Source: Micromonospora carbonacea
GTDB lineage: Bacteria > Actinomycetota > Actinomycetes > Mycobacteriales > Micromonosporaceae
DNA length: 64,000 nucleotides
Direction of reading: 5' to 3'
Assembly: GCF_014205165.1 (NCBI RefSeq)
Contig: NZ_JACHMZ010000001.1
Location: forward strand, 3,326,001-3,390,000
The position numbers were made by a program, and so were the translations under genes. Numbering within the stretch: position 1 is the first letter of the stretch; every line of letters starts with the position of its first letter. Below, piece by piece: positions 12,648-17,989 of the stretch. A model generated the notes under the pieces. The model did no database searches. It was not told the DNA's origin and saw nothing but the letters and a program-made list of their open reading frames with translations.

Positions 12648-15600
12648 TCAGACGCCCGAGGTGACCCGGTAGGCGTCGAACACCCCGTCGACCCTGCGGA
12701 CCGCGGCCAGCAGGTGCCCCAGGTGCAACGGGTCGGCCAACTCGAAGCTGAACCGGCTCACCGCCACCCGGTCGCGGGTGGTGGTGAGCGTCACGGAGAG
12801 GATGTCGACCCGCTCGTCGGAGAGCACCCGGCTGACGTCCGCCAGGAGCCGCTGCCGGTTGAGTGCCTCCACCTGGATGGCCACCAGGAACGCCGAGGCG
12901 GAGGTGAGCTTCCAGCTCACCTCGACCACCCGCTCGGCCTGGGCCCGCAGCTCCGTGGCCTTGGCGCAGTCGTCGCGGTGCACACTCACACCGTTGTTGC
13001 GGGTGACGAACCCGAAGACCGAGTCGGGCGGCACCGGCGTGCAGCAGCGGGCCAGCTTGATCCACACGTCGCCGGCGCCCCGCACCACCACGCCCGAGTC
13101 GTGGCCGTTCATCCGGACCCGGGGCGGCCGGGTGGCCACGGCCGTCTCGGACATGTCCTCCGCCGCGCCCTCCTCGCCCCCGTACGCGGCCATCAGCTTC
13201 TGCACCACCGACTGCGCGGAGACCCGGCTGTCGCCGACCGCCGCGTACAGCGACGCCACGTCGGCCAGGTGCAGGTCCCGCGCGACCGCCAGCAACGCCT
13301 CGGGGGTGAGCATCCGCTGCACGGGGACCCCCTGCCGGCGCATGGCCGCGACCAGCGCCTCCTTGCCGGCCTCGATCGCCTCCTCCCGGCCCTCGACGCT
13401 GAAGAACTGGCGGATCTTGGTCTGGGCGCGGGGGCTCTTGACGAAGCCCAGCCAGCCCCGTGACGGCCCCGCCGTGTCGGACCTCGACGTGAAGATCTCG
13501 ATCACGTCGCCGTTGGACAGCGTCGACTCCAGGGGCACCAGCTTGCCGTTGACCCGCGCCCCGATGCACTTGTGCCCGACCTCGGTGTGCACCGCGTACG
13601 CGAAGTCCACCGGCGTCGACCCCGTCGGCAACGGGATGACGTCACCCTTGGGGGTGAAGACGTACACCTCCTGGCTCGACAGGTCGAACCGCAACGCGTC
13701 GAGGAACTCGCTCGGATCCGCCGCCTCCCGCTGCCAGTCGAGCAGCAGGCGCAGCCACGTCATCTCGTCGACGTGCGCGGGGCCGCCCCCCGCCTGCGCG
13801 CCGTGCCGCCACCGGGCCATGATCCCGTACTCGGCGACGCGGTGCATCGCGTGGGTGCGGATCTGCACCTCCAGGTGCCGCCCCGTGGGCCCGACGACCG
13901 TCGTGTGCAGCGACTGGTACATGTTGGACTTGGGCAGCGCGACGTAGTCCTTGATCCGGCCCGGCACCGGCGGCCAGTTGGCGTGCACCACGCCCAGGGC
14001 CGCGTAGCAGTCGCGCACCGTGTCGACCAGGATCCGCACCCCAGCCAGGTCGTAGACCTCAGCGAAGTCGCGGCCCTGCACGATCATCTTCTGGTAGATC
14101 GCATACATGTGCCTCGGCTGGCCCGTCGCCTCCGCCCGGATCCTGGCGGCCCTCAGGTCCGCGTCCACCTTGACGGTGACCTGGCGCAGCAGCGCCTCCC
14201 GCCGGGGCCGGCGCGCTTCCACCAGGCGGGCGATCTCCTCGTACCGCTTGGGGAACAGCGTGCTGAACGCGAGGTCCTCCAGCTCCCACTTGATCGTGTT
14301 CATGCCGAGCCGCTGCGCCAGGGGCGCGAGGATCTCCAGCGTCTCGGTCGCCTTCTGCTCCTGCTTGGGCCGGGGCAGGAAGGACAGGGTGCGCATGTTG
14401 TGCAGCCGGTCGGCCAGCTTGATCACCAGGACCCGCGGGTCCTTCGCCATCGCCACGACCATCTTGCGGATCGACTCCGCCTCGGCGACGTCGCCGAACG
14501 TGACCCGGTCGAGCTTGGTCACCCCGTCGACGAGCGCCGCCACCTCGTCGCCGAACTCGACCCGAAGCTGGTGCAGGGGGTACGCGGCGTCCTCGACCGT
14601 GTCGCCGAGCAGCCCCGCGACCAGGGTCGTGGTGTCCATGCCCAGTTCGGCCAGGATGGTGGCCACCGAGAGCGGGTGGGTGATGTAGGGGTCGCCGGAC
14701 TTGCGGTACTGGCCGGAGTGCCACCACGACGCGGTGTCGAACGCGCGCTGCAACAGCAGGACGTCGGCGTCGGGATGGCTCCGCCGGTGGGCGGCCACCA
14801 CCGGTTCGAGCGCCTCGCTGACCTGGGGGGTGTCGCCGCCCAGGAGGCCGTCGATGCCCATCCGGCGGGCCAGCCGCCGCACCGACGAGACACGGTGCGG
14901 CTCCGCGCCGCCGGCCCGCGTCGGACCGGGCGCGGCCGCGTCGGGGACGAGGTCACCGGGCGGGGGCGCTGCCTCGACGCCGTCGAGGTGGGCGAGCGCG
15001 GTGACGGCCACGCGGCGCTGCAACGGCGCCAGGCCCGCCTGTCGCGCGAGGCGGACAAGCAGCTCGCGGCCCCGCCCATCGCCCGCGCGGGCGAGCGCGT
15101 CGGCGGCCCAGACGCGCTGCCCGCCCTCGAACGCCTCGTCCTGGCCGACCACGGCGAGCAGGGCGGGACCGTCGACGTCGACGAGACGCGCCACCTGTTC
15201 CATGATCCATTTGTCGCCGCCGTCGCCGACCGTCCCGTCCGGGTCGACGGGGCGGGGCGGCGTCGGGTGCGGCGCGAGGTCGGCCAGCGTGCGCAGGGCG
15301 CCGACCCGCAGCCGGCGGTCGATCCTCGGGTCGGTCACGACGGCCCGGGCCAGGTCGGCTCCGGCGGGCCGGCTGAGGTGGACGCAGGTGTCGACGGCCA
15401 CCTGCCGGTCGTCGACGGATACGCGCTCGTCGTGGGCGATGGCACGCAGCGCCCGGACGGCGTTGTCCACGACCTCCACGGTCAGGTCGTGGCCGTCGTC
15501 GACGAGCGCGCCGACGAACAGGGCCGCGCCGAGGCCGCCGGTGGCCGTCATGGCCCGCAGGGCCGAGGCGACGGCGTCGGGCTGCGGCCACGCCGCGACC

Positions 15601-17666: not shown

Positions 17667-17989
17667 TCGAGGCCCACCTTGACGCCGGACTTGGCCGAGG
17701 CCTTGCCCAGGATCGCCACGAACTTGCCAGACTCGACGGCGAACTCGCAGCTGAACTCGACCGACAGCCGGGTCACGTCCGCCCCGCGCAGCGAGTCGGC
17801 GACCTTGCCGGCGAAGGCCGCCAGCCCGGCGAGCGCCTCGTCCAGGCTGGCCGGACGGCCGGCGACCTCGGCCTCGTCGCTGGACGCCCCCGCCCGCAGG
17901 ACCCCGGTGGACAGGTAGACGACATGCCCGTCGACCCGCAACGGCACCAGGCTCTCCGGCCCGTCCACGGCAGCGCCGTCCTCGTTCAC
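17645..17989 (-). CDS. Trypco1-type (trypsin-co-occurring) small protein
   Basis: A 114-residue protein from a GTG start with a strong GAGGTGGG site. The core SVEFSCEFAVESGKFVAILGKAS ending in VGLEWEK matches the Trypco1/CU044_2847 pattern (VEFG-x-KLA-x-EAG ... A-x-F-x-VTLTW). This is a small domain known to sit beside trypsin-like peptidases in predicted NTP-dependent conflict systems. The first half (LVPLRVDGHVVYLST) looks like a beta-hairpin. It is likely the protease partner, substrate or sensor adaptor. It overlaps the start of the protease-NACHT-Rel gene, whose own ribosome site (AAGGTGG) lies within it, so the two are made together. Confidence 0.75.
   Translation of the reverse strand: MNEDGAAVDGPESLVPLRVDGHVVYLSTGVLRAGASSDEAEVAGRPASLDEALAGLAAFAGKVADSLRGADVTRLSVEFSCEFAVESGKFVAILGKASAKSGVKVGLEWEKPTT

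Follow-up and report, generated by a model that had tools for sequence, protein, structure and literature searches.

A protease–NACHT–Rel fusion in Micromonospora carbonacea, a candidate NLR-like receptor that may use a catalytically altered Rel as its sensor

A 64,000-nucleotide stretch of the Micromonospora carbonacea genome (assembly GCF_014205165.1, contig NZ_JACHMZ010000001.1, positions 3,326,001 to 3,390,000; hereafter the window) encodes a 1672-residue protein in which a trypsin-like protease, a NACHT-type NTPase, helical repeats and a full-length Rel are joined in one frame, with a small Trypco1 gene upstream that overlaps the fusion gene by 22 nt. This layout had been proposed in an original prediction made from the sequence, and both the frame (by its open reading frame, Pfam and NCBIfam) and the Trypco1 partner (PF19493, 50.8 bits) are confirmed here. 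Across the family the protease and NTPase residues are invariant while the Rel active sites are lost, and the half of Rel that reads tRNA and the ribosome is mostly retained. It is therefore doubtful that a complete housekeeping-type Rel serves as the C-terminal effector, as had been supposed; in the window itself a metal ligand of the hydrolase is lost and three alarmone contacts differ. What stands of the proposed conflict system is a recurrent protease–NACHT–Rel/Trypco1 unit that resembles predicted systems. We tentatively suggest an NLR-like protein in which Rel would be a sensor of stalled ribosomes or uncharged tRNA and the protease the effector, rather than a maker of (p)ppGpp (guanosine penta- or tetraphosphate).

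Relatives were taken from a homologue search in which the best 120 of 262 proteins above threshold were used. Of these, 27 were placed in a STAND set, 82 served as canonical controls (83 with the genome's own rel), and 11 fell in neither (P0006, P0085, P0086, P0087, P0091, P0101, P0102, P0103, P0108, P0109 and P0115). The STAND set (n = 35) is made up of the 27, six further relatives and the loci L037 and L038; homologues that keep both the protease–NACHT chassis and Rel, for which the original prediction had advised a search, number 30, namely 28 from protein searches together with the same two loci. Chassis without Rel number 72, of which 49 entered the chassis tree and the residue counts. 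Six proteins without a protease region (P0026, P0076, P0077, P0080, P0081 and P0158) give no data in the protease counts, and gaps in the HD motif (P0026, P0100, P0122 and P0158) are scored as changed in the site-by-member counts and as no data in the pooled and p-value counts.

Where the region is present, Rel-bearing chassis keep the protease residues without exception (H 22/22, D 24/24, S 24/24) along with the Walker A lysine (28/28) and the Walker B aspartate (30/30), and each of the five is kept in 49/49 non-Rel chassis; the predicted triad H54/D95/S172 and the Walker residues K322 and D401 of the window are among these invariant residues. The active sites of Rel, by contrast, are changed in 28 of 29 scorable Rel-bearing members, with both sites affected in 20, the hydrolase only in 6, the synthetase only in 2, and both intact in one (P0105). 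The residues D264 or E323 are lost in 6 of the 29. Another protein, P0146, ends before the synthetase and carries H77Q. A further NACHT–repeat–Rel chassis, P0103, lies outside the sets; its motifs read LLHDTVEYT, ACRLHDMRT and RPRHYYSIYR, and its sites are therefore changed too.

Pooled over 34 of the 35 STAND-associated Rels (P0146 was excluded), catalytic residues are changed at 190 of 672 positions (28%) and tRNA/ribosome-contact residues at 5 of 162 (3%), while other control-invariant positions are changed at 462 of 3243 (14%) in the N-terminal half and 111 of 1503 (7.4%) in the C-terminal half. In the 83 canonical controls the changes amount to 5/656 (hydrolase positions), 5/996 (synthetase) and 11/495 (contact). 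Contact data exist for 16 lineages, and in 15 of them more is lost of the catalytic than of the contact residues; four of the 16 supply one or two contact cells. The extreme case is P0100, where 14 of 17 scored catalytic residues are changed or deleted, yet the whole set of TGS and zinc-finger domain (ZFD) residues is present.

The reading residues of the window copy are in place, comprising TGS His1365, which by motif we take to be the equivalent of E. coli RelA H432, and the zinc-finger pair Cys1541 and Cys1542. Among STAND-associated Rels in which the TGS region can be compared, 29 of 32 carry the histidine (73/83 in controls, which otherwise mostly have Asn), and the cysteine pair is present in all 26 of the 35 that have the zinc-finger region. 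According to PMC7058999, TGS uses H432 of E. coli RelA (H420 in B. subtilis) to inspect the CCA end of tRNA that is uncharged, and variants of the zinc-finger CC pair weaken recruitment to the ribosome.

It is established that NLR and Avs proteins have their effector at the N-terminus and their sensor at the C-terminus (for STAND proteins see PMC10907252). Among the 72 relatives without Rel, HEAT repeats are annotated in 39, and the precomputed Pfam column gives no other named enzyme domain; Rel therefore occupies the end at which an NLR/STAND protein has its sensor. Because Rel lies at that end, its catalysis is apparently dispensable and its reading half is conserved, the role of sensor is favoured over that of alarmone effector, with an integrated decoy and then drift ranked below. 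On a stall in translation, such as phage takeover or damage to tRNA might cause, the fused Rel would engage the starved ribosome by its TGS/zinc-finger/ACT half, and NACHT, released by this engagement, would bind ATP and oligomerise. The proteases, now clustered, could cleave a target, possibly together with Trypco1 or by way of it, such that the cell is halted or killed. With catalysis lost, the receptor could sense starvation while neither adding to nor depleting the (p)ppGpp of the cell, and exchange with the host rel, to which the mosaics described below point, may preserve the fit between the reader and the host ribosome.

A second STAND type is represented by P0075 (Nocardia; NB-ARC–TPR–Rel), P0206 (Nocardia; TPR–Rel) and P0079 (metagenome; TPR–Rel). 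In these three proteins E81/D82 are replaced by SY, NY and GY and K243 by Q, Q and R, and the TGS histidine and the zinc-finger cysteine pair are present, so this lineage appears to repeat the pattern of changed sites and retained reading residues. The Rel of P0075 shares 88% identity with its counterpart in Nocardia callitridis. It is possible, although we hold this broader proposal with still less assurance than the sensor role by itself, that NLRs of more than one STAND type took in the stringent factor of their own cell, did away with its catalysis, and retained its reading half, host-matched by recurrent exchange with rel. The outcome would be a translation-surveillance immune receptor with the stalled ribosome as trigger and the protease as executioner.

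In the window copy, motif comparison places Gly1021 at H77 of the hydrolase, with R44, H53, D78 and D144 present, and the synthetase pocket carries R241Q, K243R and S247A with D264, Y308, H312 and E323 intact. For RelSeq, the accessible portion of PMC13299517 has the metal held by H53, H77 and D144, hydrolysis abolished by R44Q and D78A and synthesis by D264G and E323Q, and pppGpp surrounded by residues that include R241, K243, S247, K251, K297, H312 and Q325. The change K243R is also seen in the genome's second RelA/SpoT homologue (RSH).

The possibility, raised with the original prediction, that the fusion might be the only rel gene falls away, since the genome (7.53 Mb, one contig) has a separate, intact canonical rel (L001, motif LLHDTIED). 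Canonical rel motifs are intact in the five genomes with a copy in one piece (G000, G200, G202, G203 and G204), and in a sixth (G201) the canonical rel appears in pieces. The shorter second RSH (L003, G000:C1:1498711; 598 aa) has an intact HD motif and no ACT was found in it; such a gene is also present in five other genomes checked (L052–L056). A 271-aa open reading frame elsewhere in the genome (L004 1333–2148) gives a weak RelA_SpoT match (25.9 bits, cut-off 27), and the homologue search also returned P0109 and P0087, an apparent Rel with two RelA_SpoT stretches and an apparent transporter–Rel fusion.

Domain by domain, the fused Rel is 71–100% identical to the genome's own Rel. At the DNA level the fused copy (12651–14831) and the canonical gene (L001 304–2988) form a mosaic of near-identical and diverged stretches, with 100% identity over codons 289–313, 99–100% over codons 543–617, and values down to 67–72% in other 25-codon blocks. 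The 63 compared TGS residues are identical (amino acid identity 1.00; synonymous divergence, dS, 0.021) and dS in HD is 0.259, while the synthetase is the domain least like the host rel (71% identity; ratio of nonsynonymous to synonymous divergence, dN/dS, 0.66). The corresponding dS values are 0.13 (synthetase) and 1.31 (HD) in M. tulbaghiae and 0.09 and 1.16 in M. chalcea, and the HD of M. tulbaghiae is, on these distances, the part clearly spared by recent overwriting. The mosaic of fused and canonical rel is a sign of gene conversion within the genome.

Phylogenies bear on the same history. One branch of the chassis tree splits the 30 Rel-bearing from the 49 non-Rel members (Shimodaira–Hasegawa-like approximate likelihood ratio test 97, a quick method). 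In the Rel trees, by contrast, fused and canonical Rels are intermingled (13 label changes, at least 5 forced), and in the HD-only tree, which omits P0100 and P0134, there are 11 label changes, at least 6 forced, with one clade in 0% of 200 bootstrap trees. Gene conversion is a likely explanation for part of this discrepancy. Many independent captures of Rel by one chassis, as the Rel trees suggested, were rejected on the single split of the chassis tree and the mosaics. From these we propose one old fusion followed by exchange or replacement with the host rel, and a separate TPR/NB-ARC–Rel lineage.

Several observations weigh against Rel as a ribosome sensor with the protease as effector. The statement that every fusion has lost an active site was rejected, as P0105 keeps both. 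Taken alone, the window has no significant excess of active-site changes (hydrolase 1/8 vs 1/52 other invariant positions, p 0.25; synthetase 3/13 vs 6/38, p 0.68), and the four intact synthetase residues mean that weak synthesis by its Rel is possible; with the sister protein P0002 added, the hydrolase excess is 3/16 vs 2/104 (p 0.017), and the case for changed active sites is one made by the family rather than the window by itself. The pooled p-values treat related rows as independent, the lineages compared are not fully independent, and the contact-residue set was picked after the data had been seen. Zinc-finger cysteines are missing from the available proteins of P0092, P0099, P0105, P0107, P0121 and P0123, TGS is missing from P0122, and the TGS histidine is lost in P0076, P0134 and P0094, so that a full ribosome reader appears not to be universal among members; gene conversion could itself preserve the C-terminal half of Rel. 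In addition, a protease is missing from the available proteins of P0026 and P0158, and P0075 has no enzyme domain besides NB-ARC and Rel; in these three Rel may be the sole output, unless an upstream gene or the N-terminus is missing. Finally, P0014, P0018, P0020, P0021 and L037 (Micromonospora) and P0082 keep 10/10 scored synthetase residues, and in the Micromonospora clade of the first five and P0023 (which has S247A) the hydrolase is changed at 24 of 48 positions and the synthetase at 1 of 78.

These last points are what would be expected of an alarmone effector, in which NACHT senses an invader and a hydrolase-free Rel floods the cell with (p)ppGpp so that growth stops, the protease and Trypco1 acting as regulators. 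At least one of H53, H77, D78 and D144 is changed or gapped in 26 of the 30 Rel-bearing chassis, favouring net synthesis; the window retains the catalytic carboxylates, and RelA nucleotidyltransferase domains are listed, in the part of PMC7159879 at hand, as less frequent effectors of vWA–MoxR conflict systems. However, 22 of 29 members have altered synthetase residues, the losses of D264 or E323 among them, while the protease triad is invariant, and in the window the synthetase is the very domain least like the host rel. The intact synthetase of the five Micromonospora relatives could be explained by recent gene conversion as well as by selection for synthesis; in M. tulbaghiae and M. chalcea it lies in a stretch of low dS to the host rel, and its intactness is therefore weak evidence. 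We consider this explanation less probable than the sensor role, and it is possible mainly for the Micromonospora clade, whose synthetase appears intact and hydrolase dead. It and the sensor reading predict opposites, in that function would require protease Ser172 if Rel is the sensor and Rel Asp1206/Glu1266 if Rel is the effector.

An integrated decoy is less probable again. The fused copy would be bait for a protein, from a phage or a competitor, whose target is the host Rel; binding of this protein would trigger the receptor, with the ribosome uninvolved. The location of Rel at the sensor end, its changed active sites, its mosaic relation to the host gene and its resemblance to the Rel of the host lineage (the label changes of the HD-only tree; P0075 and N. 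callitridis) would all suit a bait, and the members without a zinc finger fit a bait better than ribosome sensing. A bait, however, needs no selective retention of tRNA and ribosome contacts. Ordinary decay, by which the Rel of one old STAND–Rel fusion has no role and drifts, occasionally patched by gene conversion from the host rel, is the least probable account: the heterogeneous active-site losses, the gene conversion to which the mosaic points, the gene broken in M. sp. NBS 11-29 and the one split by a TGA in Plantactinospora endophytica are in keeping with it, but long frames persist across many lineages, dN/dS between the window and L035 is 0.31 in HD, 0.35 in the synthetase and 0.29 in TGS, the TPR/NB-ARC–Rel lineage repeats the pattern, and even divergent members keep their reading residues (P0134, at 38% identity, has the zinc-finger set though its TGS histidine is lost; P0100, at 51%, has the whole TGS/ZFD set).

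The fusion is real. A misassembly or frameshift joining two genes near 15000, the main caveat of the original prediction, was rejected because the same fusion recurs in independent Micromonospora genomes, namely M. sp. ATCC 39149 (L035; residues 1–960 85% identical, Rel 87%) and M. tulbaghiae and M. chalcea (L037, L039). The Trypco1 reading frame overlaps the start of the fusion in all three, by an identical 22 nt in L035, and Trypco1 adjoins the chassis in 10 of 11 close-chassis loci (L005–L007, L009, L010 and L035–L039; L006 and L038 look like one and the same genome), the exception being L008, where it was not seen. Overall dN/dS between the window and L035 is 0.34, so the fusion gene is under constraint. 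The unit is sporadic in the family: a search of 200 genomes that scored no more than four candidates in each gave a match at E < 1e-100 in 5, three of which have Rel visibly following the match. The fused gene of M. sp. NBS 11-29 is broken within Rel (L036 10001–15001); the canonical rel of this strain also appears in pieces (L046, L057), and assembly errors may be the cause. The Plantactinospora endophytica gene has a TGA between the chassis and Rel. The Plantactinospora locus L038 was considered as an unfused Rel in a separate operon and rejected, as both open reading frames lie in the same frame with a single TGA inside; it is therefore no evidence for a native two-gene form.

The features are collected in Table 1. 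The Walker A and Walker B motifs of an NLR-fold NACHT are both present in the fusion; its Pfam NACHT score (22.7 bits) is under the gathering cut-off of 26.7, and the relatives P0014, P0018, P0020 and P0021 have the NACHT domain in precomputed Pfam annotation. The predicted model of the fusion matches NLR-type NACHT and HtrA-type protease structures, and that of Trypco1 is too low in confidence for use (predicted local distance difference test 44). The order HD–SYN–TGS–RIS–ZFD–ACT is complete in Rel, which scores 765 bits for TIGR00691 (cut-off 499) and lies under the RelA and SpoT equivalog cut-offs (514 vs 728 and 569 vs 947).

Table 1. Positions in the window of the fusion gene, its parts and the adjoining Trypco1 gene
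Feature	Position	Strand	Details and basis
Protease–NACHT–helical repeat–Rel fusion gene	12648..17666	-	1672 aa, GTG start, stop included; open reading frame and translation, Pfam, NCBIfam
Trypco1 gene	17645..17989	-	114 aa, GTG start; PF19493 50.8 bits, translation
Trypsin-like protease domain (HtrA/DegP fold)	17025..17642	-	residues 9-214
Protease His54	17505..17507	-	alignment column, translation
Protease Asp95	17382..17384	-	alignment column, translation
Protease Ser172	17151..17153	-	alignment column, translation
NLR-type NACHT module	15342..16937	-	residues about 244-775; Walker A K322, Walker B D401
HEAT-like helical repeats	14832..15341	-	residues 776-945; AlphaFold2 (AF2) secondary structure, comparable region in HEAT-bearing relatives
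Rel hydrolase (HD) domain, motif degenerate	14301..14744	-	residues 975-1122; PF13328 145.5 bits, motif comparison
Rel H77 (Mn ligand) position, Gly1021	14604..14606	-	motif comparison; H77 role from accessible part of PMC13299517
Rel synthetase domain	13803..14117	-	residues 1184-1288; PF04607 120.8 bits; D264, E323 equivalents present
Alarmone-contact changes R241Q, K243R, S247A	14100..14120	-	residues 1183, 1185, 1189; contacts from accessible part of PMC13299517
TGS domain	13488..13667	-	PF02824
TGS His1365	13572..13574	-	translation; matched by motif to E. coli RelA H432
RelA_AH_RIS region	12975..13430	-	residues 1413-1564, including zinc-finger Cys1541-Cys1542; PF19296
ACT/RRM domain	12666..12896	-	residues 1591-1667; PF13291 57.8 bits

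The neighbours on the 3' side of the fusion gene are an unassigned open reading frame (12120–12620), an IS4/5-family transposase in two overlapping frames (11171–11997; the fusion gene ends about 650 bases away) and a two-component pair (9151–11120). Next to Trypco1, a predicted protein with a ricin-type lectin and a beta-helix (18239–19891) is encoded divergently, and a siderophore-interacting protein and an acetyltransferase are among the further neighbours. None of the eight neighbouring open reading frames scanned between 9151 and 21660 matches MoxR, vWA or VMAP, and no defence island is visible among them. Phage records gave no match at 1e-10 (viral contigs were not scanned), and plasmid records gave seven matches at 1e-20, none covering more than 80% of the query. 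A PADLOC scan returned five families at E 0.01, none named Avs, with weak partial matches to RT-Protease_XI, PDC-S33, LmuA and PDC-M35A. Judged by the titles and abstract openings among the matches listed, the open-access literature searched describes no NACHT–Rel fusion.

If Rel is indeed the sensor, a bacterial starvation reader would be wired into an NLR-like receptor, and a proteolytic shutdown would be triggered when translation stalls, as it probably does under phage takeover and under defences that cleave tRNA. Bacteria would then have a novel means of noticing infection and other disturbances, one that parallels translation-surveillance immunity in eukaryotes and the NLRs that carry integrated host domains. 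It would also be a case in which the reading half of Rel has been separated in nature from its enzyme half. Should Rel be the effector instead, a NACHT-gated, hydrolase-dead Rel would still be a controlled alarmone synthetase of a new class.

The unit shares parts with several known systems. Trypco1 and Trypco2 were named by Kaur et al. 2020 (PMC7159879), and as in the Trypco1–trypsin ternary conflict modules of that paper a small Trypco1 gene adjoins a trypsin-like peptidase; unlike in those modules MoxR, vWA and VMAP are missing from the eight scanned neighbours, and the accessible part of the paper does not mention a NACHT–Rel fusion. The domain order of HD, synthetase, TGS, AH/RIS, zinc finger, ACT is that of long RSH proteins (Rel/RelA/SpoT), but the Rel of the window is fused behind a protease–NACHT–repeat chassis, has lost the hydrolase histidine, has three alarmone contacts changed and exists beside a normal rel. 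Antiphage STAND proteins of the Avs/bNACHT type resemble the fusion in an N-terminal effector-type domain, an NLR-fold NACHT and a C-terminal sensor-type region, a likeness in anatomy, and differ in that the C-terminal end of the fusion is Rel. The similarity to the antiphage NACHT protein EruA is local (NF058535, 38.1 bits, residues 397–539 only) and far under that model's cut-off of 1000 bits. In plants, some NLRs carry integrated decoys, in which a copy of a host protein is fused into the immune receptor and its catalysis is dispensable. Unlike these, the fusion described here is bacterial, has a candidate protease effector, and retains the ribosome-reading residues of its Rel.

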